40,852 nt of DNA from a virus. This document shows, piece after piece, positions 3,994 to 40,852 of the stretch. Position 1 is the first letter of the stretch; each line of letters begins with the position of its first letter. The notes under the pieces are model-generated. The model had not been told where the DNA came from, searched no databases, and saw only the letters and a program-made list of their open reading frames with translations. A program made the translations under genes and the position numbers. Location: the IMG/VR virus record IMGVR_UViG_3300007363_000006, positions 1-40,852 of that record; one strand, 5' to 3'.

Positions 3994-4296
3994 ATGGGGT
4001 TAGACGAGTTAATTAAACAGATAGAAGAAGCGATTCGAGATGAGAGCACGATGCTTGGAGTTCGGTACACTGATGCAGCAACCAAGCTGGAAGTGGATAG
4101 GACGACCAAGCTCATTTTGCTTGAGATTTTAGAGGAGTTAAACAGATGTTCTCTTTTGCTGTCTCAACTGGATAAATTTTTAATAATTTGCGAAGAAAAT
4201 CAAAAAAGAACCAAACAAGTATCAAAAGAGCAATTTGTTAAATGGTATCACAATCACTTAGAGAATATGTGGTCTACTCTTGAGGATGAAAAATAG
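3994..4296 (+). CDS. hypothetical acidic helical protein, 100 aa
   Basis: GGAGG at 3981-3985 fits an ATG at 3994 (8-base spacing, product MGLDELIKQIEEAI) better than the ATG at 3988 or the in-frame start at 3946. The protein is acidic and heptad-like (LDELIKQIEEAI; LILLEILEELNRCSLLLSQLDKFL), so a helical bundle or coiled coil is likely. It is followed immediately by the recombinase gene, and could be an accessory or directionality factor for it by position only. Confidence 0.6.
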   Translation: MGLDELIKQIEEAIRDESTMLGVRYTDAATKLEVDRTTKLILLEILEELNRCSLLLSQLDKFLIICEENQKRTKQVSKEQFVKWYHNHLENMWSTLEDEK

Positions 4297-4297
4297 T

Positions 4298-4831
4298 ATG
4301 GCAACAATCATGAACGAAGAAGACTCAGCCAAACTGCTACCAGTATTGATGGGTAGCAGTGACCTACTTGTGTTTGAGCTTATTTATAGAACCGGATGTC
4401 GGACTCATGAGCTTAGAACCTTACAGCCGCAGGATGGCATGGTGTTAATTCGCGCAGCCAAGGGTGGGCGCAATCACCATGTTCCGGTGGATGCGGAGTT
4501 CTTGCTTAGACTTGAGTGTCATTGGGGTGAGATCAAGCATGAGATGGAGCGGGTTGGATGGGAGAGTTACAAGGCAATGCTACGTCAGAAGTGGGCAAGG
4601 TTAAGAGCGATGCACAAGTTTCTTAAACCTTACAGCCTTCACAGCCTTCGAGGTGGATTTGCCACCAAGGTTTATCGAGCCACCAAAGGTGACATTATGA
4701 TAACCAAACAACTGCTTGGACACGTCAATCTCAACTCAACCGCCCACTACATCCAAACCGTCAGCCTAGATGCCGTAAAAACTCAAATTTTAGACGCGGT
4801 GAGTGCTAACCCAATAAAAAAGGTAACTTAG
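4298..4831 (+). CDS. tyrosine recombinase, catalytic domain only, 177 aa
   Basis: The product cuts and rejoins DNA through a 3'-phosphotyrosine. The full catalytic set is present: R35 (TGCRTHELR), K55 (AAKGGRNH), H115 and R118 (HSLRGG), H142 (LLGHVNLNST) and Y151 (HYIQT). The N-terminal SAM-like core-binding domain of typical 300-400 residue integrases is absent. The length instead recalls FimB/FimE-type inversion enzymes (about 200 residues). I chose the ATG at 4298; in-frame TTG 4280 or ATG 4286 would add 4-6 residues. It may integrate the phage, resolve dimers or invert a segment; no attachment site was recognised. It is the last gene of the plus-strand unit, facing the origin-like region. 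Confidence 0.85.
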   Translation: MATIMNEEDSAKLLPVLMGSSDLLVFELIYRTGCRTHELRTLQPQDGMVLIRAAKGGRNHHVPVDAEFLLRLECHWGEIKHEMERVGWESYKAMLRQKWARLRAMHKFLKPYSLHSLRGGFATKVYRATKGDIMITKQLLGHVNLNSTAHYIQTVSLDAVKTQILDAVSANPIKKVT

Positions 4832-5084
4832 CGTGCACTTTTTTGCTCCTTTTTTTCAATTTCCTCAATGGTTCCCAGATGATAGGCACAAAAAAAACAC
4901 TCTAAAATATAATATATATATATATATATATATTAGAGTGTAAAAAAATATATATATATATAGAAAATAGGCGAGCAAACACATTTTCGGTGTAAGAGTA
5001 TGAGATTATTGAGAAAAAGGTCGACGAGCACCCCCACGAGCAAGAGGCGAGCACTCGTTTTTTGGGGCGAGCAGTAAGAGCAGT
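4832..5084. other. candidate replication origin: AT-rich palindrome plus five CGAGCA iterons
   Basis: The stretch lies between the convergent recombinase and primase genes. The arms ACACTCTAA (4897-4905) and TTAGAGTGT (4933-4941) flank a pure A/T core; a further A/T run extends to about 4969. Then CGAGCA occurs at 4972-4977, 5025-5030, 5037-5042, 5048-5053 and 5068-5073, three of these as GGCGAGCA. Repeat distances of 12, 11 and 20 bases are close to one or two helical turns. An A/T unwinding region beside iterons, next to a primase gene, is the classic origin layout. The call is inferred from layout. Confidence 0.5.
4897..4941 (-). terminator. possible terminator for the primase transcript (A/T-stem hairpin)
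   Basis: Read on the minus strand, the 9-bp-arm hairpin is followed by a run of T (complement of the A-run at 4890-4897), about 145 bases past the primase stop codon. The stem is almost entirely A/T, so it is weak for a rho-independent terminator, and the same element may serve as an unwinding region. Confidence 0.35.
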
Positions 5085-7388
5085 CTAAGACACAGTGCAG
5101 TGCCAATAGATTGACCTGTTATGTGTCTTTTTTGTCACCTCAAGAATGTTTTCCTCAAGGAACGTCTTCTCAATCATTGATAGGTCACGGTCTATCTGAT
5201 CCAAGCTGCGCCCCCTTGATAGCTTAATAAGCTGCCGCTTGAACTCTGACCTGCTGACAACCTTACGAGCTATGAACCACCTGCGAAGCGCACTGTAAAC
5301 CTGTTCGGCTGAGAATACTCGGTCAAACACACCATCCATGTGATAGGTCACATTCGCTAGCTGATAGTCAAAGACCCTTTCAGCCCACTCCAAGTGCTCC
5401 ACATCAATCACATCACGCTTGTTCTGGCTGACAGCGTAACAAAGACTAAGCCTTAACACCTGTTCCACCTTACGGGTCAGAATTGATGAGCGATAATCAG
5501 TCTCACCAATGTCAACACCCTCCTGATAAGCGTGTATTGCCTCTGTAGCACGCTTGACGACTAGATTGAGGTAATCGCGGGCACTGACCGTCAACTCTAA
5601 GCCATAAGGCACTAAACTAACCCTGTGGGCGTCTAAACACGCTTTTTCGTAGTCTGATGGCTCTTTCATCGAGTTCACACTGATAACAGTGCCACTTGAC
5701 TCTTCTCGCTCAGGCTGAATAGACCAGATGTCCCTTACTCGGTTGATAATCTCAGGATGGATAAGGATTTTTGACCTCATCGACAGCTCACGAGCATCAG
5801 TGGGCAGCAAATCATCACAAAAGTACATAAATCTAGTTCCAAGACCACTTTTTACGAAGTTTTTGTCGATATTGTCTTTGAACTCGTCAGGAGTAGTGAA
5901 TCCGAGCATCGTGATACATGGATTCTTGATCGTAAGAACACTGTTACGAGCAAGAGCACGACTTCCAGTCTCACTTGAAGACTCACTCCACATATTCATC
6001 ACAACTTCCTTGGCTTTCTTGAAATGCTTACCGTCTTTGATTTCTTTTAAGAACGATCCGAATTCGTCGTACAAGTCAATGCGACTTCGCTTAGGTCGAA
6101 GCGGCAAATCACTTAAAATACCCTCAGCAGAGCCATAAGACCTAACCCCAATAAGGCTCTCAGCCCCACGACCAGCTTGGTTTAAAATTTTAATAATCGC
6201 CTTCTGCGGGAAGCTCTTGCCACTTCCACTGAAAGCCACGGTCATCAAATAAAGATTAGACCAGTTGTTTAACACCGAATACACGTTGCCAGCCAAGACT
6301 GAGCATAAACCAAGAGCGCCGACAAACGGCATCACTGGGCTCTTGGAGTTGCTTGTCTCAAACGTGTAAGCCATCGTCCACTCGATAAGGCCATCTTTCG
6401 GAATAAGCTCAAACAGACGCTTTCGCTGAGATTCGATGAAGTGATAGTGATTAAGCTTACTCATCTCATCTATGGCCATTTCCTTCACACCGCTCTCCAC
6501 TGAAGACTCAATCACACTCTGCTCAACTCGCGGCTTAAAGTAGTTGGGGTAAATCGCATCCTTTTCAATTGCAGCCTTCAGGTGCCGCTGGAAGAACTGA
6601 CGAGCGTTAGCCACACGATCCGCTGAACCACGCCACTCGGAAGCATCGCCGAAGTAGTTGTCAGCACCCAAGTGAAGCGCGTCTTCTTCAAGAAGCTTCT
6701 CTACTATATCTTGGTCAGTAAGCGGCTTACTCTTGATCTCTCGATTGCAGATGAGATCCCACACGAACTGCGAGAAATAATTGTTGCGATTGCCACGAGC
6801 GCAGCCACCGTCGTGAGAGATGTGCCCACTCATCGCAGCTCGAACCGTGGCTGGCTTGAAGATGCCGTGCGCCTGAAATGCGTTCTTTAGATTCTCGATC
6901 ATCTCCTCTGTGATCTCTTCAAGCTCTTTAACGTGAGTCAGCACCGATCCGCTCTCCCACATATATTGTTGCTTGGTTTCAGGATGGATACTTGGAGGTA
7001 TCACTGTGTAACAACCCTGCGCCAGAATATCGAGCGCAAGAGTGCGAGAGTTGTGCTTCTTGATTCCTGTACCGCGATAGAAAAGAGAAAAACCTTTCTT
7101 TCCGATCTTAACCATCGGCGTTGGCGGCAAGAGTTCTTTGCACAAGGCACGAGCTTTTTTGGTTAGCTCTTTATCAAGCGTGTCAACATCAACCACTACA
7201 ACATCAATGCCAGTCATCACCGCGATGTTTGAATCAGGATACATTAGCGACCAACCATCAACGACTTCAACAGGTTGCTTGTTTGTAAGCCAGTATTTGA
7301 ACAGAACTGGCATCGGCTCTTTGCCACGGCACGGCAACACGTTGTATCCGAGCTCGTGTAGTTTTGTTGAATTTTCTGCGAAAATCAT
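5085..7388 (-). CDS. prim-pol / DUF3987 primase-helicase fusion, 767 aa
   Basis: Residues 1-180 look like a bifunctional primase-polymerase (archaeo-eukaryotic primase) domain, with the metal-binding DVD after a hydrophobic strand (VVVVDVD, 63-69) and SIHP (H135). A linker leads to a DUF3987-type ATPase with Walker A AFSGSGKS (385-392) and Walker B RIDLYDEFG (D441, E442); the C-terminal 120 residues are winged-helix-like. The protein probably primes and unwinds phage DNA at the replication fork. The ATG at 7388 has GGGAGA nine bases upstream; a GTG at 7406 would add six residues. It is transcribed against the rest of the replication genes, with its end beside the iteron region. Confidence 0.85.
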   Translation of the reverse strand: MIFAENSTKLHELGYNVLPCRGKEPMPVLFKYWLTNKQPVEVVDGWSLMYPDSNIAVMTGIDVVVVDVDTLDKELTKKARALCKELLPPTPMVKIGKKGFSLFYRGTGIKKHNSRTLALDILAQGCYTVIPPSIHPETKQQYMWESGSVLTHVKELEEITEEMIENLKNAFQAHGIFKPATVRAAMSGHISHDGGCARGNRNNYFSQFVWDLICNREIKSKPLTDQDIVEKLLEEDALHLGADNYFGDASEWRGSADRVANARQFFQRHLKAAIEKDAIYPNYFKPRVEQSVIESSVESGVKEMAIDEMSKLNHYHFIESQRKRLFELIPKDGLIEWTMAYTFETSNSKSPVMPFVGALGLCSVLAGNVYSVLNNWSNLYLMTVAFSGSGKSFPQKAIIKILNQAGRGAESLIGVRSYGSAEGILSDLPLRPKRSRIDLYDEFGSFLKEIKDGKHFKKAKEVVMNMWSESSSETGSRALARNSVLTIKNPCITMLGFTTPDEFKDNIDKNFVKSGLGTRFMYFCDDLLPTDARELSMRSKILIHPEIINRVRDIWSIQPEREESSGTVISVNSMKEPSDYEKACLDAHRVSLVPYGLELTVSARDYLNLVVKRATEAIHAYQEGVDIGETDYRSSILTRKVEQVLRLSLCYAVSQNKRDVIDVEHLEWAERVFDYQLANVTYHMDGVFDRVFSAEQVYSALRRWFIARKVVSRSEFKRQLIKLSRGRSLDQIDRDLSMIEKTFLEENILEVTKKTHNRSIYWHCTVS

Positions 7389-7445
7389 CTTGTGTTTCTC
7401 CCACACCTGCGGTTAGAGTTCAGTTTCGTTGAAAAGGAGCATATA

Positions 7446-7643
7446 ATGAAAAACAAAATTTTTGTAAAATACTATGAAGAAAAACTCGGCACACTGAAGC
7501 AAGCGTCATATTTTTTTCGCTACAGCAAAAGTTCAATCTGCCAATGGTTAAGCGGCAAGACGCTTCCAGGGCCGCGTGCTATTCGTTTGATCGCAAAGAA
7601 AACACAGAACTCAGTTCCCCCTGAAACTTGGTATCGCAAATGA
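7446..7643 (+). CDS. small HTH (Cro/YdaS-like) protein, 65 aa
   Basis: AAAAGGAG precedes the ATG. The protein reads MKNKIFVKYYEEKLGTLKQASYFF, then RYSKSSICQWLSGKTLPGPRAI, then RLIAKKTQN, which fits a helix-turn-helix of the Cro/YdaS type: a helix with KQAS, a recognition helix around SKSSICQWLSG and a third helix after the P-G-P-R-A turn. It is probably a DNA-binding regulator. Only 57 bases separate it from the divergent primase start, so it could control both genes. It is the only repressor-like protein I see. Its stop overlaps the next start as ATGA. Confidence 0.7.
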   Translation: MKNKIFVKYYEEKLGTLKQASYFFRYSKSSICQWLSGKTLPGPRAIRLIAKKTQNSVPPETWYRK

Positions 7644-10421: not shown

Positions 10422-10772
10422 ATGAGGGAATTACAGGTAGAGCGCGACTGTTTGATGTGGCTAAACAAGAATGGGTGGTACGCGTGGAAGGTACAGAACG
10501 GAGCAATATATGACGCCAAAACAGGAAGCTATCGTAAACTGTCTCAGTTTCATGTTCGCGGGATCAGCGATGCTATTGCTGTTAGTGATAGTGGTGTTGT
10601 TGTTTTTATCGAATTTAAAAACGAAACAGGACGCCAATCGAAAGATCAAGAAAACTTTGAGAGACAGATTAAAAAACGTAAAGGAAATTATCTACTCGTA
10701 AGATCAATAGATGAATTAAAAGAGAAACTACATGAAACTTTGCAACACTCCCTACATCCACTGCAAGATTAG
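10422..10772 (+). CDS. VRR-NUC domain nuclease, 116 aa
   Basis: The protein matches stand-alone phage VRR-NUC enzymes of the PD-(D/E)xK class: an N-terminal helix with RELQVE, a GISD box (D50), a FIEFK strand (E64, K66) and an SKDQENF helix (Q76), ending with YLLVRSIDEL. Such enzymes cut branched or structured DNA and accompany helicases in phage replication modules. Length (about 110) is normal for the family. It starts 11 bases after the helicase stop and overlaps the next gene by 41 bp. Confidence 0.85.
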   Translation: MRELQVERDCLMWLNKNGWYAWKVQNGAIYDAKTGSYRKLSQFHVRGISDAIAVSDSGVVVFIEFKNETGRQSKDQENFERQIKKRKGNYLLVRSIDELKEKLHETLQHSLHPLQD

Positions 10773-11247
10773 AAATCAATTTCTAGGAATACCAGGAACA
10801 TTTACTGAGTGTTATATATTCATGCTGACAGCTCTGCCCAATCGCCCAATTTTATTTACAGCCCACACAGTGCATGGTGGAGTATTTTCAAGACTTCCGA
10901 TCTGGGCGTTTGCTCCAATTACAGCAAAGTTCAGCAATACGCCAACAAAGAAACTTCAACGCTGGAGTGTACTTGGTACAGAGTGTGAAGTGATCGCGCC
11001 ACTGTATCTTAAGGACTATAGAGTGAAAACTCATTTTGGTGAGGGGACGTACAAGTTCACTGTAGACTTCACTGATGGAATGTTTAGCGAAGATCCTGAG
11101 CAACACAAGTCACTTCATTTTATTGAGTTAAATGAAACATACGCATTGCTGCCAAATAACGAGTGCAGGTTTGTTGACTCGCACTTTGTTGAAGATACAG
11201 CAATTGAATACAAGAGAAACATAGAATACTTTACAACGGAGGAATAA
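10732..11247 (+). CDS. conserved-looking hypothetical protein, 171 aa
   Basis: This protein is not recognised. It is mixed alpha/beta and aromatic-rich, begins MKLCNTPYIHCKIRNQF, and has a HTVHGGVFSR segment and an acidic C-terminus. There is no membrane helix: the FTECYIFMLTAL stretch is short. It lies between a nuclease and an exonuclease gene and overlaps both (41 bp and 1 bp), so it is very likely part of the replication/recombination operon. Confidence 0.7.
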   Translation: MKLCNTPYIHCKIRNQFLGIPGTFTECYIFMLTALPNRPILFTAHTVHGGVFSRLPIWAFAPITAKFSNTPTKKLQRWSVLGTECEVIAPLYLKDYRVKTHFGEGTYKFTVDFTDGMFSEDPEQHKSLHFIELNETYALLPNNECRFVDSHFVEDTAIEYKRNIEYFTTEE

Positions 11248-26526: not shown

Positions 26527-29064
26527 CTATAGAACCTCCACAATTTTATAAAAGCAAGTCATCGTCGAAGCCGCACTATATTGAGCGGTTACATTTAACA
26601 CCTGATCTGCCGCAGTGTTCACGGTGCTGTTGGCATAAATTAAAATGCTATCAGAGTTTCCGTTTGAAACTTGTTGACGAAGTTTCCAATCAAGAATTGT
26701 TTTTTGCGACGATTCACTGGCATTTGGAGCAATAATTATTGTCATATTCCAATGATTCGTTGTTGTATCAGCAAGAACCTCGGCAATACTTTGACAAATT
26801 GTTGTTGGCCCAAGTTTTACTCGAAGAGTAAGTGTTTTTGCGGCGTTTGCGCCAGAGCAAGTACCATACATCGTTACTCTTATCGGTCTATTTGTGAACA
26901 TTGTTGAAGCTCTGATTTTTGGAGCAGCAGCAAATAAGCTAACCTCGGCAGTTTGACCTGAAGGCCCCGCTGAAGTTGCTTCCGTATAAAGTGTGTGGTG
27001 CAGACTGTATCCATCACTATTGTCTGTTGGTGCTGGAAATTGATCGTGTAACTTGATATCCCAATTTCCTGCCGAAATCGTGGCGCTAATTGTAGGTGTT
27101 GGTGTAACAGTCATTGTCAGACTTGACTTCAAGGCCACTTGCAACGGAACTTGAACGCCTGCGGAAGAATCAATATGAATCCAAGATCCCGATGATATGC
27201 TACCATTATTTCCAGTGTTAGTTGACAAAGTAACTGTAGGGCTTCCGGCTGTTAAAGTAAGAGTACCACTACCAGGAATATAACTAGGAGTGTTGAATCG
27301 CAACAAATCTCCACACGTATTATATAAACAACTTGTTGGATCAGCGTTTCCATAAACTGCGTGATTGCCGTAGGGACTTTCAAAATAAATTTTTGTCGGG
27401 CCGTAATTTGTTTCTAATTTATATCCTGCTCCAGTCCCCCCAGTTGCCACACCGATATTTGCGTGTACTGTTAATGCCGTGTTGGATGCAATTGCTACAA
27501 CAACATATCTTTCCGTCGATCCACTTCTAAAAATTGTGTCCCCAACCGCAAGTTGAGTTGTAAATGTACTGCCAACACCTGTCACAGAAGTTGTGCCAGT
27601 GTTAAAGGTGATCGAGTTGCCGCCAGTTGAAGTTAATAATGTGGAAGATCCTTCGTTAGCTTTGCCGCCACCGAGAATTCTAAATTCCTTATCATAACCT
27701 AACGCTTTATTTCCATAGTTCAAAGTGTCACGTCGTACCGTGAACATATCTTTGTTGCTTTTGTCAAAGAATCGAAGATAGTAACCAGTAAAGTTTGACA
27801 AATCTTTTGGAGCTGCGACCGAGATCAGAGACCCTGCTCTACAGTTTGCGCCTTCAATAAGCATCACAGGCTCGTTTCCAAATGATTCAGACTTAACCCA
27901 CATGGCAATTCCTGAGTCCTTATTCCAGACTCGCATCAATCCGCCGTTATACGTATTCCCTGAATCAGTTATGTAATTTCCTACAAAATCGTAGCCAAAG
28001 ATTGAGTTAAATTGATTTCCACCATAGGTAGCGTAAGGCATACGTTCTGAAAATTGAAATTGATGAGTAGCGTTTACGTTGCCGTCAGTATATCTAACCC
28101 AAGGATTTTGACTAAGACTTGTTGTTGGTGCGAGAACGTGTTTTCCAGCCACACGAGAGCTTGTCGATGCGTGTGCCGTTCCAGACCAAGAATGACCTGC
28201 TCCCAATGATCCATCACAGTATGTTGTCGGCCAACCATAAGCAGAATATGCAGAGCTGATACTTTTTTGCTCAAGTTGAAATGCGTCCATGTACCATGTA
28301 ACAGCTATTGCTGACGCAGTTAAAACTTGCAAAATAACAGACGTATCGGATGGACCAGAAGTCCATTCCGCCCAGCCTCTAGTCCAGTCACCATAAGGAA
28401 TTATATATTGACCAAAACCTAATAACCCACTCACGTTTCCGTTGAAGTTAATGTTTAAACTTTCGCGGTTAGTTGCCGGATTATAGTCGGGCACTGGGGC
28501 TGAAGTTGATTTCAAGTAAAAGCTAAAAATGTAGGTAGTGTTTGGCGATACAGCGATAGATGCAAGTTGAACGCCTCTTCCAGTTAACGCGGTTGTCGTT
28601 ACTCTTAACGAGTTTGATCCAATCCATGCAAAAGCATTTGATTGAGCAATTGCCGTTCCAGTACCTACAGCCGAATATCCAGTGATGTTAGTCTCACAGC
28701 TTGGGTTTGTAACTAAGTTAGTGGTTGCTTCGTCATGAACTTCGGCAATCCTAGTATTGCCGCTTGTTGATACTGGCTGAAATGTCGCCTGTCCTCCGGC
28801 AACCTTAAGTTGATTTGTTGTATCGTCCCAGCTTAAATTTGTAACATCTTGAGCTATAGTGGCACTGGGGTTAACAAATAAAATTGAGTTTTGAGTCCCG
28901 CCTGTAATGCCGCCACCAATAGATGGATTACTTGCTCCGATTTGAATATCATTTCCAGTCTGCGTGATTGATACGTTTGTTCCAGTGGAAAAAGTAACAT
29001 CCCCGCGAAGCTTTGGTGATCCTGTTTTTGAAATTGAAGTTATTAGTCGTCTGAATAAACTCAT
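26527..29064 (-). CDS. tail/fibre protein with carbohydrate-binding-like domain, 845 aa
   Basis: The N-terminus has short Gly/Thr-rich strands. Residues about 113-307 resemble a CBM-type jelly roll common in phage tail proteins: TTNLVTNPSCETNITGY opening, NTTYIFSFYLKST, WYMDAFQLEQ, and the closing YCDGSLGAGHSWSGT. Later parts are beta-rich with TGTTSVTGVGSTFTTQLAVGD-type strands, and the C-terminus ends TMTCFYKIVEVL. It is probably a spike or fibre that touches surface sugars. Its start overlaps the 803-residue gene as TAATG. Confidence 0.7.
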   Translation of the reverse strand: MSLFRRLITSISKTGSPKLRGDVTFSTGTNVSITQTGNDIQIGASNPSIGGGITGGTQNSILFVNPSATIAQDVTNLSWDDTTNQLKVAGGQATFQPVSTSGNTRIAEVHDEATTNLVTNPSCETNITGYSAVGTGTAIAQSNAFAWIGSNSLRVTTTALTGRGVQLASIAVSPNTTYIFSFYLKSTSAPVPDYNPATNRESLNINFNGNVSGLLGFGQYIIPYGDWTRGWAEWTSGPSDTSVILQVLTASAIAVTWYMDAFQLEQKSISSAYSAYGWPTTYCDGSLGAGHSWSGTAHASTSSRVAGKHVLAPTTSLSQNPWVRYTDGNVNATHQFQFSERMPYATYGGNQFNSIFGYDFVGNYITDSGNTYNGGLMRVWNKDSGIAMWVKSESFGNEPVMLIEGANCRAGSLISVAAPKDLSNFTGYYLRFFDKSNKDMFTVRRDTLNYGNKALGYDKEFRILGGGKANEGSSTLLTSTGGNSITFNTGTTSVTGVGSTFTTQLAVGDTIFRSGSTERYVVVAIASNTALTVHANIGVATGGTGAGYKLETNYGPTKIYFESPYGNHAVYGNADPTSCLYNTCGDLLRFNTPSYIPGSGTLTLTAGSPTVTLSTNTGNNGSISSGSWIHIDSSAGVQVPLQVALKSSLTMTVTPTPTISATISAGNWDIKLHDQFPAPTDNSDGYSLHHTLYTEATSAGPSGQTAEVSLFAAAPKIRASTMFTNRPIRVTMYGTCSGANAAKTLTLRVKLGPTTICQSIAEVLADTTTNHWNMTIIIAPNASESSQKTILDWKLRQQVSNGNSDSILIYANSTVNTAADQVLNVTAQYSAASTMTCFYKIVEVL

Positions 29065-31475
29065 TACGTCAACTCCGTCACTCTAGCTGCGCCAGTGGCA
29101 GAATCCCATACGCCAGTTATGATTCCAGTGTAAATATATTGTGCCGGAAGTTCATAATAGTCGTCTTGGTTTAATTTCACAGTAAAACTTGTTGTCGATG
29201 CAGTTGATCCAAGCTTCAAATACAAGATTGCAGTTGAATCATTAAAAATTGTAGCTCCAAGTCTTGATGCGTTTGATGCAACAAGAGTCACACTTGCAAC
29301 ACTTCCAGCAACGGAACTTGTGGTGCTTGTCGATGATTTCGGAAGTGTGGAAATTGTTACCGCACCTGTATTGCACGCGGTAACTTTAGTGTTTAAAGCA
29401 CTAAGCGTTGTTTCGGTCGCTGCGCCTGTAGGCAAAGGCAACGACGCTGCACTAATTGCAAATGTACCTGTGCCAGCGTTAGCAGTAACAGTTCCATCTA
29501 CTGTTAAACTTCCGCCGTTATCAGTTACGGGAAACGCAGCTCCAGTTCCAGGTTGCACTGGAAGCGCTTTTGCTAAAGTAACAGCTCTTTGTGTGCCTGA
29601 TTCGTTCCAGTTAATTTGATTACCAGTTGGAGTAGCAGCCGCAGTTCCATCAGCATATTGAGTACCGCCACCAAATGACGTGATCTGGTTTCCAGAGCCA
29701 TCAATGATTGCAACATCAATACCGCGTGATGTTCCAGCCAAATGTGAAGTTAGTGAGTTACCAGAACCGTCAAGATTCCTGACAGACCAGTTTCCTGACT
29801 GAGTAGCTGCTACAGTTCCAGATACTGGCTGAGTAACACCGCTGCCATCAACAAGTAACCGAGTTGAAGTTACTGTCAGGTTAGCAGGAATTTTTCCGTT
29901 TAGAGTTGAAAGAGTTGTCTCAGTAGCCGCTCCAGTGGGAAGCGGGAGTGATGCTGCGCTGATAGCAAATGTTCCAGTTCCGGCGTTAGCTGTTACCGTT
30001 CCACTAACTGGCTGAGTAGTTGCAGACCCGTCTACTCTGACGGCTCCAGCAGTTGTGAGCGACAAGGGATTTGATTGACCAGTCGTATAAGTAGGAGCCG
30101 CAGTCGTTGTTGCTCCTAAAATCAAATTGCCCTTTTGACCGCTAGTTGTTGAACCGATCGAAAGCGATAAGTTATCTGTATTCGTTTTAACGGACGCTAG
30201 GTTGCCACCACTTTCAAGTGCGAGAGCTGACGTGTTTAAGTTAGTTCCTGCATTGGCGGTAACAGACCATGCGCCTGATTGAGTGGCAGCTATCGTTCCG
30301 TCTACAGTAATTGATCCGGCATTATCCGAAATCGGAATCGCCGAAGTAAACGGATTAACTTGCGATGCAAGTGTTACGTTAGGAAGCGTTAAAACATCAA
30401 CGTCACCGATGTTATTTGTTCCAGCCGGAAGTGCCGTGCTGATTGTAACCGCTCCTGTATTGCAGGCAGTAACTTTACCGTTCAAAGAACTAAGAGTTGT
30501 TTCAGTCGCGGCACCCGTTGGAAGCGGAAGCGATGCGGCTGAAACGGGCTGAGTAACACCTGAACCGTCAACAAGTAATCTTGTTGAACTAACAGTCATT
30601 CCAATTGGAATTCTTGCAGTATTGTTTTTAACGTCAGTTAAAGTTGTATCGGTAGCGACGTTCGTTCTTGCCCCAGTTGAATCAAGAACGGCAACGTCAA
30701 GACCTCTCGACGAACTCACTAAATGAGACGTGATGCCGTTTCCTAATGTGTCTTGAGTTCGTACTTGATAAATTCCGCTTTGAGTAGCGGCAACTGTTCC
30801 ATCAACTGTCAGGCTTCCGCCATTATCGGTAACTGGAATTGCTGATTGATCGGAACTTATTGCAACGGGCAACGAATTGGCCATTGTATTTTGGCCAACT
30901 ACTCCCGTTATATCGCCTAAAGCTACAGTGAGACTTCCGCTTGGTGTGACTTTAACGTCAACGTATGAACTTCCGCCAGCGGTTGTCTTGCCCTGGATTA
31001 CTGACTTAGTTAATTCGGCAAAAAAGTAATCGGTTGGATTTTGGTTAAGTCTTAAAAGTGAGCTTTGAACTCGCGTTGGTTTAAGAATTGTTTGAAGTCT
31101 AAAAGCAGTCTGAGCCGATCCACTATTTGTATATACAACGCGAGCGTATTTATATTCGACATTAAATACATATCCAACACCAGTGGGGCTTGTGTATGTA
31201 GTTGAGTGCGAGTGATCCCAATTTGTTCCATCGGGAGAAAATTGTACTGTTACGCCATTTGTTGCTGACGCTACATCGGAATAGACGTTGACGTTAATTA
31301 CGGCAAAATCCGTAACGTCCATTGCTGATCCAGTAAATACAGCATTGGCACCTAGAGGCGTAGTAGAAGAGTTACCAGCATTAACATAACCTTTGATGTA
31401 ATCTACAGTTACGTTACTTGCGCCACCGCCACCGCCACTACTTTTTGGAGAACCGCCAATTCCAATATGGCCCAC
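29064..31475 (-). CDS. repeat-rich tail/fibre protein, 803 aa
   Basis: A GTG start (31475) with GGAGG upstream gives MGHIGIGGSPKSSGGGGG, then a beta-sandwich-like domain (VTDFAVINVNVYSDV...TVQFSPDGTNWDH) and about 600 residues of short repeats: SLTVDGTVAATQSG, STRLLVDGSGVTQPVS (twice) and ASLPLPTGAATETTLSxLN (three times). The C-terminal domain ends in strands (FTVKLNQDDYYELPAQYIYTG). This is a likely fibrous virion protein with a repeated beta shaft. The three copies of one segment are identical in residues but use different codons. Confidence 0.7.
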   Translation of the reverse strand: MGHIGIGGSPKSSGGGGGASNVTVDYIKGYVNAGNSSTTPLGANAVFTGSAMDVTDFAVINVNVYSDVASATNGVTVQFSPDGTNWDHSHSTTYTSPTGVGYVFNVEYKYARVVYTNSGSAQTAFRLQTILKPTRVQSSLLRLNQNPTDYFFAELTKSVIQGKTTAGGSSYVDVKVTPSGSLTVALGDITGVVGQNTMANSLPVAISSDQSAIPVTDNGGSLTVDGTVAATQSGIYQVRTQDTLGNGITSHLVSSSRGLDVAVLDSTGARTNVATDTTLTDVKNNTARIPIGMTVSSTRLLVDGSGVTQPVSAASLPLPTGAATETTLSSLNGKVTACNTGAVTISTALPAGTNNIGDVDVLTLPNVTLASQVNPFTSAIPISDNAGSITVDGTIAATQSGAWSVTANAGTNLNTSALALESGGNLASVKTNTDNLSLSIGSTTSGQKGNLILGATTTAAPTYTTGQSNPLSLTTAGAVRVDGSATTQPVSGTVTANAGTGTFAISAASLPLPTGAATETTLSTLNGKIPANLTVTSTRLLVDGSGVTQPVSGTVAATQSGNWSVRNLDGSGNSLTSHLAGTSRGIDVAIIDGSGNQITSFGGGTQYADGTAAATPTGNQINWNESGTQRAVTLAKALPVQPGTGAAFPVTDNGGSLTVDGTVTANAGTGTFAISAASLPLPTGAATETTLSALNTKVTACNTGAVTISTLPKSSTSTTSSVAGSVASVTLVASNASRLGATIFNDSTAILYLKLGSTASTTSFTVKLNQDDYYELPAQYIYTGIITGVWDSATGAARVTELT
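29390..30550 (-). repeat. protein-level internal repeats in the 803-residue tail gene
   Basis: The segment ASLPLPTGAATETTL is encoded three times (about 29393-29455, 29900-29960 and 30485-30545), within longer units that also contain a TACNTGAVTIST or TSTRLLVDGSG part. Codons differ at many synonymous positions between copies, so the repeats are old and kept by selection on the protein, not by recent DNA duplication. Confidence 0.75.
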
Positions 31476-33848: not shown

Positions 33849-34757
33849 TTAATCTAATTGTTTGGCACGCTTCTTAAGATCATCAAGTGATCTAATAGCT
33901 TGCCGTGTTGGTGATCCTGATCCTTTTCCGACGTTAGGAATCACACGTTTTCCTGTTGTTGCTATTTGTTGTGGTGCCATTGTTGCTTGTTCTTGAGTTG
34001 CGCCCAAGAACGGCGAAAATTCTCTTGATACAAGAGAGAGCAACTGGCTTGGGCGAACATGAGTACCTTGCTGGGCCACCATGTAGGCTCCTCGATCAAT
34101 GACAAGAGACTTGAAAGCACCTTCTCCGTAAGCCTTGTCATAGGCTGACTTCAACGAAGAATACTCGGGCTTGGCTAGCTCCATATCAAGCTCGATGTCA
34201 GTTACGCGGGCCAACTCTTGCGAAGCTTGCTCGCGATACATCATATTCTCTTCCATGATTCGCTCTTTTTCAAGCTCCATCATTTTTTTTGCTTCAATAG
34301 CTTCTTGTTGTTCTTGTGGAAGCTGTGCTCGATCAAGCTTAGCCTTCACAATCTTAAACAACATATCATCGGTGTAACCAAGCTCTTGAAACACTCGATC
34401 ATGATCTTCCTTACCATAATGATATTGCAGCTTGTTTACGCGATCTACAATTGGCTTCCATTCTGATTCATAGGTGCCAATTTTCTCGCGATACTTAGAC
34501 GCAGCATCAGCACGCTGAATATAATCGCGAACCTTTTTCAACGAATCATCGTCCTTAATCAATCCACGAAAAAACGGATCAATCTCACGCTTCTTACCGT
34601 CAAATTCATAAGTGTAATCAGGAGTCCACGCGGACGCTTGCGCATCAGGGGTAGATGCTTGCTGAGTCTGCGTAGATGGAGCTGATTGAGTTACTTGCGT
34701 TTGCTGTGTTGTTAGTTCTGTTGACGTGTCTGTGCCTGTTGTTTCTTCTGTTGCCAT
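33849..34757 (-). CDS. scaffold protein, 302 aa
   Basis: It lies between portal and capsid, the standard scaffold position. The N-terminus is Thr/Gln-rich and disordered (TTQQTQVTQSAPSTQTQQA), the middle is a long charged helix (QEQQEAIEAKKMMELEKERIMEENMMYREQASQELARV), and the C-terminus has a basic tail (RSLDDLKKRAKQLD) like the capsid-binding tail of P22-type scaffolds. It guides procapsid assembly and is then removed. No protease motif is present. Confidence 0.75.
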   Translation of the reverse strand: MATEETTGTDTSTELTTQQTQVTQSAPSTQTQQASTPDAQASAWTPDYTYEFDGKKREIDPFFRGLIKDDDSLKKVRDYIQRADAASKYREKIGTYESEWKPIVDRVNKLQYHYGKEDHDRVFQELGYTDDMLFKIVKAKLDRAQLPQEQQEAIEAKKMMELEKERIMEENMMYREQASQELARVTDIELDMELAKPEYSSLKSAYDKAYGEGAFKSLVIDRGAYMVAQQGTHVRPSQLLSLVSREFSPFLGATQEQATMAPQQIATTGKRVIPNVGKGSGSPTRQAIRSLDDLKKRAKQLD

Positions 34758-34805
34758 AATAATCTCCGCGCCGCAATCCCTCGCGAGGCGCTCTGCTATC
34801 AGAAA

Positions 34806-36917
34806 CTAGAGTGTTTCTGTTGAGGGTGGAATAACTTCGGCTTGGAGTCCTTGCGCAGTAGGCTGACTATTAGCAGCCACTTCAGGCGAAGCCTGTCCAA
34901 GCATCGCAATAGCACTTTCTGGCATTGTTTCCATTTGTCTCTTAAATGTTCCTTGATCTTGAAGCTTTTCAATGAGCCAGTTGAGAGCATCATACGGTAC
35001 ACGCGCTCTGCGCGTTCTCTCAGGATTGACAGGATCTTGAATGAAGAAGTCCACACCAACCATCGCTCCACCATCAGGAATAAACCCAGATTGCGCACGA
35101 AGTGCAGCATCTCGTTGAGAACTTACAATATCAAGGTGCGCTGCGATATAGTCCTGATACATCTGTTGCATTTCAGGGGCCATGAATTGAAAGTCTGCTT
35201 GATTCATTCGCATGGTAGCCTTGTTGACAAGAAAGTCATGAGGCTGTGATTCAGTTACAATCGGCATCATCCCGCGATCAAGAGAAAGTAAATCGTTTGT
35301 TGCCATTGTTTCATTCATCGTTAAATCAGAAAATAAATCATCAACATTGGCGTAAGGAAGGCCCTTAATAAGCTTACCAATCATATTCTGATCCAAACTT
35401 GAACCAACATACTGTAAAGCGTGTTGAATAGTAAGAGTACGACCAAGCTTGGTTTCAACATCTTCTGATTGAGCTTCAATCACAATCTCAAGAGACTGAT
35501 CGTTTGCACTCTTAAATTCAGGAATGTTGACCATCTCACTTCGACCAACAGAAAATACAACCATATCATCTGGAATGTAGTATTTCGCCATTCTCAAATA
35601 TGTCATGCAAACGCGTTTCAAGAATCCTTCAAACGGCTTGATGTAACGTAAAAATTTCTTCTTCTGAGATGCAGCCCTAAAAAGCAACGTGTGCGGATCA
35701 AGATTGGCTTCAACATCTTCTTCTTCAATGTCAGCCAAATCATACATCTCACTTACAGTGCTCTGTGCATAACCAACATATTGATCTCCTGATCTACCAG
35801 GAAGGACTGTGGGAGCTGGGCCAGAGACAGTAACAGCTCGAATTCCAGGAAGTGTAGCTCCAGCAGAAACCTTAGCTCCATTCTGCAAAATAAGCTTATC
35901 ATCGCCCAGCGTGACTTGCGTTTCGGCAATCTTACTAATAGCCCTGTTGACCTCAAGCTGAGAATGTCTAAGAGGTTCAACAGCACTAATGCCACGACAC
36001 TTAGTCTGAATGTACTCATATCGTTCGCAAACAATCGGGAAAATTCCTTCAGGAAGCTCTCCTTCATCTAAGATAACTCCGGCTGAATGAATGTAGTAAT
36101 AGCCTTTCGGATATTCAGGGCTAGGCTTAAAGTACCACTCCTTAACAAGCACTTCATCTTTCTTGTTTCGTCTATACCCTTGGTTAATATCGAAAACCAT
36201 AAATGGTTGCTCATAAGAACCGCCACCAATTTGATCTGCTTTATCAGGGAATAGTTGCTTTAAGTTATCAGTCTTAACTGACTTGCGAAGACAATAATAA
36301 GTGGAATCTTTTAACGCTTGAGCCGATGGATCTCGAAGCACGTTGAAAGCAAAAATCTCTTCAAACTTAAGCTGCCCTTGATGAACTGGCTTAGTTTCAT
36401 CAGCCACAGGCTGGCCCATTTCATCAACTGCGGGCTGACCATCTGGAGTCATCAATGGCTCATGGCCAACAATCGGGCCAGCAGTTTCATCCCAATAAAT
36501 CTTAGCCCACACTTCACCAATGCCAACAAAATCATCAGACCATTGACGAACTAGATTGGAAAAATCATTTCTCTCTTTGCCATCAACCCAAATAGCTTGA
36601 TGTAATTCTGCTGATTTCTGATCTTGAAGTTCTTGCCTATGTTTCGGGCCTACAGTGACAGATGGAGATGTGGCAACAATCATGTTGCTGATACGACGAA
36701 TGATGCGACCAAGGTGGTTCTTCGTTAGCCTAATTCGCACGTTTTCTTGCAAGTCAATCGACTGCCTAATGCGCTGAAACTGAGATCCGCGCTTGTAGTA
36801 GTGATCTCCAGAAATCATGAGGAGTCCACTCCTCATTTTAGCGAAATCCTGCTTATCGCACTCTTCTGATTCGGTGTAGAGTCTATCTAAATCCTTGGCT
36901 GAGTTAATCTTAATCAC
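34806..36917 (-). CDS. portal protein, 703 aa
   Basis: This large portal resembles P22/SU10-type portals: an N-terminal helical wing (CDKQDFAKMRSGLLMISGDHYYKRGSQFQRI), NHLGRIIRRISNMIVATSPSVTVGP, a central region with YKVKEWYFKP-like strands (KDEVLVKEWYFKPSPEYPKGYYYIHS), CRGISAVEPLRHSQLEVNRAISKIAETQ (stem/crown helix) and a Met/Gln-rich C-terminus. It forms the dodecameric DNA gate at one vertex. The GTG start overlaps the stop of the 90-residue gene upstream. Length is at the large end, as in P22 (725). Confidence 0.85.
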   Translation of the reverse strand: MIKINSAKDLDRLYTESEECDKQDFAKMRSGLLMISGDHYYKRGSQFQRIRQSIDLQENVRIRLTKNHLGRIIRRISNMIVATSPSVTVGPKHRQELQDQKSAELHQAIWVDGKERNDFSNLVRQWSDDFVGIGEVWAKIYWDETAGPIVGHEPLMTPDGQPAVDEMGQPVADETKPVHQGQLKFEEIFAFNVLRDPSAQALKDSTYYCLRKSVKTDNLKQLFPDKADQIGGGSYEQPFMVFDINQGYRRNKKDEVLVKEWYFKPSPEYPKGYYYIHSAGVILDEGELPEGIFPIVCERYEYIQTKCRGISAVEPLRHSQLEVNRAISKIAETQVTLGDDKLILQNGAKVSAGATLPGIRAVTVSGPAPTVLPGRSGDQYVGYAQSTVSEMYDLADIEEEDVEANLDPHTLLFRAASQKKKFLRYIKPFEGFLKRVCMTYLRMAKYYIPDDMVVFSVGRSEMVNIPEFKSANDQSLEIVIEAQSEDVETKLGRTLTIQHALQYVGSSLDQNMIGKLIKGLPYANVDDLFSDLTMNETMATNDLLSLDRGMMPIVTESQPHDFLVNKATMRMNQADFQFMAPEMQQMYQDYIAAHLDIVSSQRDAALRAQSGFIPDGGAMVGVDFFIQDPVNPERTRRARVPYDALNWLIEKLQDQGTFKRQMETMPESAIAMLGQASPEVAANSQPTAQGLQAEVIPPSTETL

Positions 36918-37186
36918 TCTTCATCCCCCATTGCATTGTTTTCAAATGCAAGAGGATCAGAGATAAGAAGTTCATCCTTAATCATTTCTTCGACCATCAT
37001 TTCATCTTCCTTAGAAACAGGTCTATAGATGATTTCTTGTTGCTGAATCGTAGGCTCTTGCACCACGTCCATTGTATCCTTTTTTTCAGGAAACGTAATC
37101 TCAAGAGAGTCGAGCTTGAATCTCAAAACCCCTTCGGTAGAGCAAGTCTTAATAACCTGAACTAATCCCCTAGCATCCCATTCCAA
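36914..37186 (-). CDS. hypothetical acidic protein, 90 aa, between terminase and portal
   Basis: The apparent start is a TTG at 37186 within the end of the TerL gene, preceded by GGGAGAG; no ATG occurs before Met39, so the start is uncertain. The product is acidic (EDEMMVEEMIKDELLISDP; FENNAMGDEE) with one short beta section near the start. No family is recognised. Overlaps with both neighbours (25 and 4 bp) keep it in the packaging operon. Confidence 0.55.
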   Translation of the reverse strand: MEWDARGLVQVIKTCSTEGVLRFKLDSLEITFPEKKDTMDVVQEPTIQQQEIIYRPVSKEDEMMVEEMIKDELLISDPLAFENNAMGDEE

Positions 37187-38778
37187 AATTCAAACTCTCC
37201 CTCTATTTCGTCTAATGAATCATTATTTTTCCACATTTTCAACGCGTCCCTGTTAGTTCTTGCCTCAAATGCAGAATAATATGTCGCGGCTTTCTTGGCT
37301 TGGTCTGCAGAGACAATCAAATAATCACCGTTATTTCCTGATCTCATATTAAAAGGTATCTTAATGCACGCATATCGTAGCGCATCAATCAAATCATCGG
37401 GGCAATATGCAGATGACGTAGACTTGACAGCGTTAAAAGATAAACTCTCAAACTCTTGAGCGATCTTATACCCCTCCAAGAACTGATCCGGCACACCATC
37501 CTTCTCAGATAACTCACTTGGAACATAGAATTTCAAGATTCCTGTCTTTAAAAGTGAAGAAACAATCGAATTTCCAGCATCTCTTGACTTATCTGCACGC
37601 AAAAACGGCAATCCACGACGTGCAGCCAAAGTACCTAAATCTGTCGCAGAAAAGTCATAATATGTAGCAGTAATGTCGTTTACCACCGTATTTTTCATCT
37701 CAACCCACTTATCAATGACATCTTCTGCTGTTGTTACGCGCTTATCACCACGCCACATCCTAATGGCACGCGCTTGAGTGTAGTCTGGGTTGACCGCAAC
37801 AAACACAATCGTTGATGGATGGCCCTTATCACCACCACTTCCAAAATCTATCCCAGAATATACTTCCCAGTTGCGCGGAATGTGATGATAACCAGCCAAA
37901 TGCTTGTCTCGATCAAATTGAGGAAAGCGTAAACCGTCATCCTTCACAAACTTTCCATAAATACGACGCTGTACTTCAGCATTAGTCGTACACTGATCTA
38001 TACGTTCCTTAATTCTCTCCTTACTCCACATCGTAGTTGTACCATCTGTGTACTTCATACAGTCAAAAAGAGAAATCTGCCTGACCCAAGCGTTAGGCCA
38101 TACAGTGCGATCCTCAACAATCTTCTTCCAAAAGAGTTGCCCAGTTGTAGCTGTGAAGCCAAAAATCATATACCCTTGAGTTGCCGACACACGACTCTGA
38201 AGTTCTGGCACAAGTGCCTCATCAATTTCTTCATCACACGCAACAACAGCACAAGATCCAGCCTGAAGAAGCTCAGCTCCCTGTGCATACGTCTTAAAAT
38301 AAATCGTAACTCCCTTGTGAATAAAATGAAGACTAGGCGGGAGCTTGTCTCTCTTACTATATTCCCAACCATATTCAGGATCATCTTGAGGAGGCAGAAT
38401 CGGACGCCACTTATCGTGGAATTCCGAAATAGACATATCCCTTGTCGGATACAAGTACCACATCGTCGTTGGCTTGCGATTATTCTTATGCAACTCAGGC
38501 CAGAGTTCTGGCCAAAGCTCCTCGTTTGTAGCCCACTCAATCACCTTACGGGCCATCGTAAGACTCTTGCCAATCTGGTTAGCAGCAGTCACACACTGAA
38601 CACGCGCTCGACAATCAAACCATTCCTTCTGCCACGGAAAAAACTTCATTCCATAACGATGCGGAAGTCGCTCACGCAGCGCAATCTCACGCTCAAGAGC
38701 CTCAAGCTTAGCAAGCTTCAGCTTCACAATCTCCTCATGAAGCCTACGCTTTTCTAATTCGTCATCAATGCTGCTCAA
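37162..38778 (-). CDS. terminase large subunit, 538 aa
   Basis: The ATPase domain has Walker A AANQIGKS (65-72, K71), Walker B AVVACDEE (D182, E183) and a coupling-like GFTATTG (207-213). The RNase-H-like nuclease carries D311 in SGIDFGSG, D375 in ATYYDFS and D461/D462/D466 in PDDLIDALRYA. The motor pumps DNA into the prohead and cuts it. Length is typical. The start is TTG 38778 (GAGGAG ten bases upstream); a GTG at 38724 with a closer GAGGAG would remove 18 residues. Confidence 0.9.
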   Translation of the reverse strand: MSSIDDELEKRRLHEEIVKLKLAKLEALEREIALRERLPHRYGMKFFPWQKEWFDCRARVQCVTAANQIGKSLTMARKVIEWATNEELWPELWPELHKNNRKPTTMWYLYPTRDMSISEFHDKWRPILPPQDDPEYGWEYSKRDKLPPSLHFIHKGVTIYFKTYAQGAELLQAGSCAVVACDEEIDEALVPELQSRVSATQGYMIFGFTATTGQLFWKKIVEDRTVWPNAWVRQISLFDCMKYTDGTTTMWSKERIKERIDQCTTNAEVQRRIYGKFVKDDGLRFPQFDRDKHLAGYHHIPRNWEVYSGIDFGSGGDKGHPSTIVFVAVNPDYTQARAIRMWRGDKRVTTAEDVIDKWVEMKNTVVNDITATYYDFSATDLGTLAARRGLPFLRADKSRDAGNSIVSSLLKTGILKFYVPSELSEKDGVPDQFLEGYKIAQEFESLSFNAVKSTSSAYCPDDLIDALRYACIKIPFNMRSGNNGDYLIVSADQAKKAATYYSAFEARTNRDALKMWKNNDSLDEIEGEFEFWNGMLGD

Positions 38779-39433
38779 GACGCAGCCGCTCCTCTAACTC
38801 TTTCAACTTCAAATCAATCTCAGATGACTTCGCGTGAAGCCCAAGTGCCTTTACATCTTTCGATGTTAAGTTCACAGACATCTGCTTAATTTCCTGCACA
38901 GTCCTCTGCGTCGGCATACCGTTCTTACGAATATCAAGAAACGCCACTGCTTTCATAATAAGCTCAATTGCCTTATGGTCTATTCTGCCATCATCTGATT
39001 GCATCGGCAGATCAATGATCTGCTGAAGACGACGCAAGCCCCGAGCAAGAGCCTCGTCAACAAGCGAATCGTAGTGCGTTGGCGGTATTAAAACCCAAGC
39101 AAGCGAGTTCGGCATTGTCAGATGCTCGCGGAGCAAAATAGAAGGACTCCCTTTACCAATAAACCCTTGAATACCTCGAAACGTCATATTGGTTAAACTG
39201 TTCTGAGCTGCATCGTACTCCTGCCAAAAAGCAGTTCTTACTTGATTCAAAAATGGTGTAGGACGCACAATCGGCTCAAGGTGCGTTTCATCCATCGTAA
39301 GAAGCGATAATGGCATATCATCAAATGTCTCACGGCACTCGCGAGGCATGATGTTGTAAAGTGACCTCTTATCACTCTTGCTGTATGGGCCGCCCTCATG
39401 AAATAGTCTTAGTTCTTTTTCATCCAATTCCAT
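38765..39433 (-). CDS. putative terminase small subunit, 222 aa
   Basis: The gene lies directly before TerL, overlapping it by 14 bp, the usual place for the DNA-recognition subunit. It is helical with a middle segment IIDLPMQSDDGRIDHKAIELIMKAVAFLDIRK and a C-terminal coiled coil (SSEIDLKLKELEERLRLEQ) that could drive ring assembly. I do not see a clear N-terminal HTH, so the call is based on synteny. It overlaps the kinase gene by 25 bp. Confidence 0.6.
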   Translation of the reverse strand: MELDEKELRLFHEGGPYSKSDKRSLYNIMPRECRETFDDMPLSLLTMDETHLEPIVRPTPFLNQVRTAFWQEYDAAQNSLTNMTFRGIQGFIGKGSPSILLREHLTMPNSLAWVLIPPTHYDSLVDEALARGLRRLQQIIDLPMQSDDGRIDHKAIELIMKAVAFLDIRKNGMPTQRTVQEIKQMSVNLTSKDVKALGLHAKSSEIDLKLKELEERLRLEQH

Positions 39434-39966
39434 ATCTTAACTGCAACATCCTCTAGGTGAGCGTTGGTTGTATCATAAATAAGATGAAATCGCGTTTCTT
39501 GATCCAGAGTTGTTTCAGATTCATGCGAATCGTTGGCCCACTTCTCAGCACGATTACGCCTAGCCTCTTTTGATGCGTTAAGCCTGACTCGACACACTTC
39601 AAGAGATATGGGCATAAAAAGCTCGTTGTGAAATCGCACGTCATCTACAATGACAATCGTATCCTTAATATCAAGAGCTAAATCAATACGGGGACGCATG
39701 ATGTTGACCCAAAAGTCCTCTGACATCGCCTTCCTACCCCATTGCGTTCCAAGAAGCTGCAAAAGAACTCGATCTGGCTTTTCAGGCGTGCGAACTCCGT
39801 ACTCTTGCAGCTTATGATAGATGGCATGGTGCAAGTCGTACAAAGGATCTGCAAACTTCATCAATACTGGAATGTATTTCTCATCCTTGGCTAAGTGAGC
39901 AACTCGACGAGCTACTGTTGACTTACCAGCTCCTTGCGGGCCACTGATAAATAAAACTCTCTTCAT
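39409..39966 (-). CDS. deoxynucleoside monophosphate kinase, 185 aa
   Basis: This is a P-loop kinase with Walker A GPQGAGKST (9-17), a KFADPLYDL substrate segment, a LLGTQWGR loop (typical of phage dNMP kinases of the T4 gp1 kind), a DDVRF strand and an Arg-rich lid (RLNASKEARRNRAEKW). It should convert dNMPs to dNDPs for phage DNA synthesis, with nucleotides from host DNA breakdown. It overlaps the phosphoesterase stop (ATGA). The placement upstream of the terminase pair is unusual for a metabolic gene. Confidence 0.85.
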   Translation of the reverse strand: MKRVLFISGPQGAGKSTVARRVAHLAKDEKYIPVLMKFADPLYDLHHAIYHKLQEYGVRTPEKPDRVLLQLLGTQWGRKAMSEDFWVNIMRPRIDLALDIKDTIVIVDDVRFHNELFMPISLEVCRVRLNASKEARRNRAEKWANDSHESETTLDQETRFHLIYDTTNAHLEDVAVKIWNWMKKN

Positions 39967-40556
39967 AGCTCGATAGTAATGTCGTTTACCCCGCGTGGCA
40001 AGATGACCCCACGCACTTCAGAATGTTTAAACTCAATAATCTTCTCAGGATGCGAATGACCCATAATAACAATCCTAAGAGTCGGAAGCTCTCGCTTTCG
40101 CTCATCAATCCACTCAAGCAAGTTCTTATTGGGACGCACTTGGAAATATCTTCTTAAGCCATCAATTGCTGGTGAAATCACATTTCTCTTAAGCCATCCT
40201 GCACCCTGCTTACCTGACCTGTAAGTTGTCGCACGCTCAATACCCCACATTGGAATATCACCGTGAGTGAGTAACACTGACTCCCAAAGCAAAAACTCAT
40301 CGTGCGTCTTCAAAGCATTGCGCTCGTGATTACCCATAATGTACTGCCCTCCATTGCGTTTCACATTATCTGAAAGAAGCATAGTCGCTTGCCTTGCTCG
40401 TTGCAAGTCAGCGGGGTGACAGTTGGCAATGTCAACAACATCACCAAGCAAATACACTGGCCAAGGGGAAGATTGAATCGCAAACGAAATATCATCAAGC
40501 GTGTGCGTTGGATTAACGCCATAAAGATGAATGTCGTTGATGATTCTTAGTTTCAT
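39963..40556 (-). CDS. calcineurin-like metallophosphoesterase, 197 aa
   Basis: All five metal-binding boxes are present: NDIHL (D8, H10), LLGDVVD (D39), MGNHE (N76, H77), LTHGD (H98) and MGHSH (H167, H169). The enzyme could remove phosphates from nucleotides, proteins or DNA ends. The small single-domain size resembles phage phosphoesterases near packaging or nucleotide genes. The ATG lies three bases after the Gly-X gene stop, so it probably depends on translation of that repeat gene, and it overlaps the kinase as ATGA. Confidence 0.85.
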   Translation of the reverse strand: MKLRIINDIHLYGVNPTHTLDDISFAIQSSPWPVYLLGDVVDIANCHPADLQRARQATMLLSDNVKRNGGQYIMGNHERNALKTHDEFLLWESVLLTHGDIPMWGIERATTYRSGKQGAGWLKRNVISPAIDGLRRYFQVRPNKNLLEWIDERKRELPTLRIVIMGHSHPEKIIEFKHSEVRGVILPRGVNDITIEL

Positions 40557-40559
40557 ATT

Positions 40560-40787
40560 TCACCCATCTCCAGTTCCATCGCAATCGCCATAGCCATCGC
40601 CATCGCCATAGCCATAGCCAGAGCTATTGCCAGAGCCATAGCCAGAGCCATAGCCGGAGCCAGAGCCATAGCCATCGCCATAGCCGGAGCCAGAGCCATA
40701 GCCAGAGCCATAGCCATAGCCAGAGCTATTGCCAGAGCCATCGCCATTGCCAGAGCCATCGCCAGAGCCAAAATTTACGCTTTCCAC
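40560..40787 (-). CDS. Gly-X dipeptide-repeat protein 2, 75 aa
   Basis: This is a paralogue of the 89-residue protein at 50-319. It begins MESVNFGSGDGSG and ends DCDGTGDG, against MESVDFG and GGGTGNG in the partner, so both ends are conserved while the repeat interior differs. The GTG start lies five bases after the partner's TAA once the circle is closed, which favours reinitiation. The bases around the start also preserve a TWKA-stop frame like the VWKV-stop that ends the DUF6948-type gene, so the duplication included that gene's last codons. The metallophosphoesterase follows after three bases. Function is unknown. Confidence 0.65.
   Translation of the reverse strand: MESVNFGSGDGSGNGDGSGNSSGYGYGSGYGSGSGYGDGYGSGSGYGSGYGSGNSSGYGYGDGDGYGDCDGTGDG
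40575..40770. repeat. hexanucleotide low-complexity array (right)
   Basis: This array has the same 6-base units as the array at 66-305, here coding the second Gly-X protein on the minus strand. Unit order differs between the two arrays, but the sequences just before and just after them are alike. That indicates duplication of a whole module followed by independent expansion or shuffling. Confidence 0.9.
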
Positions 40788-40852
40788 GTTAATTACCCAT
40801 TCCCAGTTCCACCGCCATCGTCAGAGCCATAGCCAGAGCCATCGCCAGAGCC
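40744..40852. repeat. 109-bp direct terminal repeat, right copy
   Basis: This is the identical partner of bases 1-109. It contains the GTG start (40787-40785) of the second Gly-X gene and the last codons of the first. The break falls inside a hexamer-repeat array, the kind of place where an assembler would stop. Confidence 0.95.

Follow-up and report, generated by a model that had tools for sequence, protein, structure and literature searches.

A probable replication origin of short repeats and A/T-rich DNA lies 3' of a PrimPol-DUF3987 primase-helicase gene in a tailed phage

Introduction

Where does a tailed phage that encodes a PrimPol-DUF3987 primase-helicase start to replicate its DNA, and which protein would read the site? 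The question is raised by a short noncoding region in the IMG/VR virus record IMGVR_UViG_3300007363_000006, the whole 40,852 nucleotides of which were analysed here and are called the window. A preliminary description of this DNA had proposed an iteron-type origin beside the primase-helicase gene and, with no obvious initiator in sight, had supposed that the initiator would be new. We ask what the region contains, whether its layout recurs behind related primase genes, and which of several readings accounts for it best.

Results

The window carries a 109-bp terminal repeat, and a separate contig, L003, spans the junction (34168-40852, then 1-1073), which implies either a circular or a circularly permuted genome. 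Matches to a P22-like portal, a terminase and an internal virion protein point to a tailed, podovirus-like phage. The early side encodes a tyrosine recombinase, the PrimPol-DUF3987 primase, a Sak4-like protein, a DUF669/SSB-like protein, a ResIII helicase and a YqaJ exonuclease; a PHROGs search with 40 window proteins gave, apart from the primase itself, no match to a DNA polymerase family. Some features elsewhere in the genome were also seen. Degenerate hexamer repeats (GCCAGA/GCCATA) run across the contig junction (40560-40852 and 1-366), and the nearest relative found, contig L087, has a similar low-complexity stretch (758-1014) at a like distance from its recombinase. A large late gene on the minus strand (29064-31475), beside a tail-fibre-like gene, has internal repeats at the protein level and repeated matches to L004 at 34-62% identity, and the product of 10732-11247 on the plus strand matches phrog_3704, annotated as ferredoxin (E 7e-19).

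The candidate region is a 253-bp gap between two convergent genes, 3' of both, bounded by the tyrosine-recombinase end at 4831 and the primase stop at 5085; both the convergent arrangement and the recombinase neighbour had been missed in the preliminary description. By nearest-neighbour stability, the 80 bp at 4890-4969 (91% A/T), which we propose as a DNA-unwinding element, are the least stable of the window (z 5.3, next 2.8), and the least stable 50-bp stretch stands out similarly (z 5.2, next 3.1). These stretches end at 4969 and 4962, and the first CGAGCA repeat begins at 4972. At 4897-4941 lies a near-perfect 45-bp palindrome whose arms, ACACTCTAA at 4897 and its complement at 4933, form its outer ends; the A/T stretch with this palindrome, and the repeats after it, are where they had first been placed. 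The palindrome is followed by T8 on the minus strand, its RNA fold has z -8.5 on the plus and z -5.4 on the minus strand, and together with T8 it may double as a terminator for the primase transcript. An Rfam search over the region gave no match at the gathering score; sub-threshold matches to the (TA)n palindrome, mostly microRNA models, were attributed to composition and discarded.

Five copies of CGAGCA, the proposed iterons, occur within 102 bp (4972-5073), all on the plus strand, at 4972-4977, 5025-5030, 5037-5042, 5048-5053 and 5068-5073, and the array reaches to 12 bp from the primase-helicase stop, which confirms the array and its place beside that gene. Five copies of a non-simple 6-mer in 102 bp arose in 0/200 dinucleotide shuffles of the window (in the real sequence, besides CGAGCA, only the contig-end hexamer repeats reached that density), and five copies of a 6-mer arose in 0/500 shuffles of the 253-bp intergenic region. 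A test of 7-mers on both strands of the window's 400-bp primase flank was ordinary (30/200 shuffles), so the claim that the copies exceed chance stands by 6-mers and fails by 7-mers. The suggestion that the spacing follows helical turns fared less well: the copies lie on one helix face with p = 0.03, a modest and uncorrected value on which we do not rely, and phasing gave p below 0.05 in 3/11 repeat sets. Further copies within the primase gene, at 5791, 5903 and 5947, are too few to judge.

The gene that ends beside the array (5085-7406, minus strand) encodes a 773-residue primase-helicase from a GTG at 7406, with matches to PF09250 (E 2e-19), PF13148 (E 1.2e-9) and phrog_3022, DNA primase (E 1e-49). 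Its AlphaFold model, for which the window and viral contigs supplied 28 sequences, has pLDDT 81.4; Prim-Pol was found in 28/28 members and DUF3987 in 22/28. Residues 336-689 (5340-6401, minus strand) align by VIA-align with MCM chains (Z 20, rmsd 3.3, 273-275 aligned residues), and residues 700-769 (5100-5309, minus strand) are modelled as a C-terminal winged helix of the order H-E-H-H-E-E, the proposed iteron reader. When the C-terminal 95 residues were modelled alone (pLDDT 70), they matched winged helices of ORC2, ORC and MCM at a middling Z of about 7. The DUF3987 region is thus predicted to be an MCM-like AAA+ domain with a winged helix after it, an order also found in MCM. The pRN1 primase was among the Foldseek matches (E 9e-6), and phmmer against the PDB gave no match for the primase. 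Neither D5_N nor DUF927 matched the window primase-helicase, an absence that does not exclude kinship, and the P4 alpha domain was not among the matches listed for the C-terminal domain, which is no argument against likeness. In the available part of PMC5862659, a helicase role is predicted for DUF3987, and origin recognition for the winged helix that related primases carry. The protein is therefore predicted to combine PrimPol, an MCM-like AAA+ domain and a C-terminal winged helix. As these are the parts expected of an initiator, and are found in the precedents, the supposition of a new initiator is not borne out: the initiator need not be new, and the modelled primase-helicase next door would be a concrete candidate. 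Divergent from its gene is that of a small HTH protein (7392-7643, plus strand; phrog_35, E 3.6e-5; no Pfam match), a possible repressor.

In L087 the intergenic region is syntenic, between the same two genes; identity to the window is 72% for Sak4, 45% for the recombinase and about 27% for the primase. No 50-mer in all 41 kb of that contig is less stable than the one in the A/T element at this site (z 6.1, next 3.6), and the region holds neither a CGAGCA cluster nor any other repeat family above chance. The A/T element has been kept in place and the repeats have not. Apart from (TA)n, the two regions have no common stretch beyond chance, and 8-mers common to window and L087 were dismissed as at chance level (153/300 shuffles). 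The searches gave no nearer strain in which the region is covered. The preliminary description had expected the repeats to persist in close relatives and the GC-skew minimum to fall at the site. The one close relative found lacks the CGAGCA cluster, and the cumulative skew of the window has its minimum at 40846 and its maximum at 13080. Neither result was counted as decisive, the first because iteron words vary between phages while the layout stays, the second because skew here changes sign with gene orientation.

To place the region among its kind, the best 80 of 350 matches to the primase were taken and joined by the window, L087, L050 and three isolates, giving 86 loci; six, in which the primase runs off the contig, were dropped, and the remaining 80 formed 31 clusters at 50% identity. 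The least stable 50-mer of the locus lies within 300 bp 3' of the primase stop in the representatives of 19/31 clusters from this best-80-of-350 set, against 6/232 control ORFs (Fisher 5e-16). Because noncoding DNA is A/T-rich anyway, the primase gap was also compared with the other noncoding gaps of the same loci, and was the least stable in 16 of 26 (expected 8.65, P 0.001), the other five of the 31, L087 among them, having no such gap by that gene calling. Seven longer contigs were examined over their full length, and in all of them the least stable 50-mer anywhere is 3' of the primase; these were all prior positives and show only that the local extreme is the global one. In the remaining 12/31 clusters of the best-80-of-350 set the least stable 50-mer lies elsewhere than 3' of the primase; part of the largest cluster has it 5' instead. 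In L083, L188 and part of the L084/L117-L167 cluster the least stable DNA was seen on the 5' side, about 170-350 bp from the primase gene. For loci with a 5' A/T extreme, repeats in the 5' flank were considered and rejected, as only 1/9 flanks had them at <=2/200 shuffles (L143, CCAACAC, six copies).

Repeats recur behind these genes as well. Clusters of 7-mers (p <=0.01) are found 3' of the primase in 12/31 clusters of the same best-80-of-350 set and in 1/88 control flanks, the latter a random 35%, and 6-mer clusters in 10/22 primase gaps against 5/86 other gaps (P 3e-5). The word differs from phage to phage: CGAGCA in the window, TTAGCA in L089, TTTCATC in L107, TTGGGAA in L108, TGTAGAC in L112, TGTTGAC in L145 and TGTGTCA in L152. 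Across 16 phages, with words taken from the repeat tests except one chosen by eye (L142), 67/98 copies fall after the primase stop and before the least stable stretch; in the window this is true of 5/5. In the recurring layout, the primase stop is followed by a repeated word peculiar to the phage and, after it, by the least stable DNA; copies in related phages are often on both strands, those of the window on one. Two further loci, L114 (GAACAGA, seven copies) and L115 (CCCCACC, four copies), have significant repeats 3' of primases whose C-termini look unlike the winged helix of the others, and the repeat layout may extend beyond the window's protein type.

Fourteen isolated phages were picked from two listings before their sequences were seen. 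Their least stable 50-mer is 3' of the primase in 3/14 and 5' in 2/14, and 4/14 have repeat clusters at 0/200 shuffles, all behind the primase: CGAAAAC in phiAxp-1 (nine copies), AGGGGAA in Vibrio 1.117.O (seven), CCTTATA, equal to TATAAGG, in Halfdan, a phage on E. coli MG1655 (six), and ATACAAC, equal to GTTGTAT, in Lucius (six). At least 200 bp of noncoding DNA follows the primase in 5/14 isolates, namely the four repeat-bearers and PmaS-R3, which has no repeat cluster at 0/200 shuffles. In the other 9/14 the next gene is at most 119 bp behind the primase, so any origin of this kind must there sit elsewhere.

Discussion

We suggest that positions 4890-5073 are probably the replication origin of this phage, placed directly 3' of the gene of its own initiator. 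The proposal of an iteron-type origin gains support from the comparison of primase loci; the position of the skew minimum, the missing repeats of L087 and the many relatives in which the layout is not found speak against it.

The neighbouring recombinase made a phage attachment site, with an A/T-rich core and arm-type repeats, the first rival to be considered. Attachment sites are often A/T-rich and adjoin the integrase gene; here the recombinase gene (4280-4831, plus strand; PF00589, E 3.4e-11; phrog_216) ends 58 bp from the A/T stretch, and L087 likewise has a recombinase and an A/T element between the same genes. The 183-residue protein is a catalytic domain only, and without an N-terminal DNA-binding part the arm repeats would have no reader; we judge its gene to lie outside the origin. 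No tRNA-like piece was detected in 4600-5300 at E up to 10. The lack of a common stretch between window and L087 other than (TA)n tells against an attachment site. No prophage carrying this integrase was found; L087 holds the only close recombinase relative found in the viral contigs, and none was found in the genome contigs, where three candidate stretches encode no relative. It was the wider comparison that moved the site to the primase: a search for PF00589 in the 18 records, most of them incomplete, that have the A/T extreme 3' of the primase (the positives minus the window) gave no match in 16, indicating that the A/T element goes with the primase. It is because of the comparison among primase loci that we favour an origin and regard an attachment site as quite unlikely.

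The convergence of the two genes, and a hairpin followed by T8 on the primase strand, would also suit a terminator or regulatory region between convergent transcripts, with the repeats as operators bound by a repressor, for instance the HTH protein, whose gene directly precedes the primase gene in other phages. A terminator, however, can do without five repeats and without DNA of the lowest stability in the genome, and operators would be looked for upstream of genes, not downstream. Strong folding (z <= -2.5) was found in 3/19 A/T extremes vs 3/57 control stretches, and a hairpin was accordingly rejected as the shared feature. As the whole explanation this reading is unlikely, although a terminator role could coexist with an origin. 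That the stretch and its repeats are incidental intergenic DNA accords with the general A/T-richness of such DNA and with the absence of the CGAGCA cluster from L087; the shuffle tests and the recurrence of the layout, which also stands out from the other noncoding gaps in those loci, make it very improbable.

Computation shows that the word is repeated, that the DNA beside it is of low stability, that the protein has the predicted domains in its model and that the layout recurs where related primase genes end; with the origin reading preferred, a course of events can be proposed. The C-terminal winged helix of the primase-helicase would bind the CGAGCA iterons, the MCM-like AAA+ domain would assemble as a ring and melt the adjoining A/T-rich element, and the PrimPol domain would lay the first primers on the exposed strands. 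The host replicase would then take over, as suggested by the lack of a polymerase family other than the primase among the 40 proteins searched.

Several known systems come close to this arrangement. In the available text of PMC7581432, SaPI Rep proteins have their origins immediately after the gene, in the form of short repeats that the C-terminal domain recognises, SCCmec Cch2 binds 5-nt repeats (AAGTG) behind its own gene, and SaPI5 Rep also has a primase domain. The likeness is in a short-repeat origin directly downstream of a helicase gene, here proposed from comparison, and in a C-terminal DNA-binding domain on the helicase, here the predicted winged helix of residues 700-769. Those systems are staphylococcal islands with DUF927 or D5-type helicases, whereas the window represents a tailed phage, complete, whose protein is of the PrimPol-DUF3987 (MCM-like) type and would bind a 6-bp word. 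According to the portions of PMC4234260 at hand, plasmid pRN1 requires a stem-loop 3' of its PrimPol-helicase gene (ORF904), and phage BIP-1 has a stem-loop there and, per the authors, no iteron-type origin. An origin in noncoding DNA 3' of a gene for PrimPol, helicase and winged helix, which those authors extend to BIP-1, would be common to both; as far as that text goes, pRN1 differs in its SF3 helicase and 100-bp stem-loop, per its authors not of iteron type, where the window has repeats and an A/T element. The 45-bp palindrome of the window may recall a pRN1-type stem-loop, but relatives of the phage are without a common hairpin. The same portions describe P4 alpha as a single protein that unites primase, helicase and winged helix and binds origin repeats; its primase is of Toprim type, that of the window PrimPol. 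Finally, in the parts of PMC7102993 and PMC8718748 available, the NrS-1 PrimPol recognises a short template word, and this phage PrimPol-helicase is supposed to initiate replication at a short site of defined sequence; its 8-nt template word occurs twice in the NrS-1 genome, the helicase is SF3 and those parts describe no iteron array. In the literature covered, mostly at title and abstract level, we found no published description of repeat origins behind PrimPol-DUF3987 genes of tailed phages, and the arrangement would be a new variant of the self-adjacent origin of SaPI, P4 and pRN1.

That the origin lies 3' of the gene in a large part of the PrimPol-DUF3987 tailed phages, with a varying word repeated beside or around an A/T element and a single protein of primase, MCM-like AAA+ and winged-helix domains as its reader, seems to us about an even proposition. 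If true, these phages would possess a one-protein counterpart of ORC, MCM and primase, in which word and reader change together, and the cases of the staphylococcal islands, P4 and pRN1 would be joined into one wider plan. The predicted structure links the uncharacterised DUF3987 to the MCM fold, with a bearing on how phage and cellular replication helicases are related. There would also be a simple rule for locating origins in uncultured phages, and the start of replication in PrimPol phages can be put to the test, now that sites, words and a protein domain have been named, the TATAAGG repeats of the E. coli MG1655 phage Halfdan among them.
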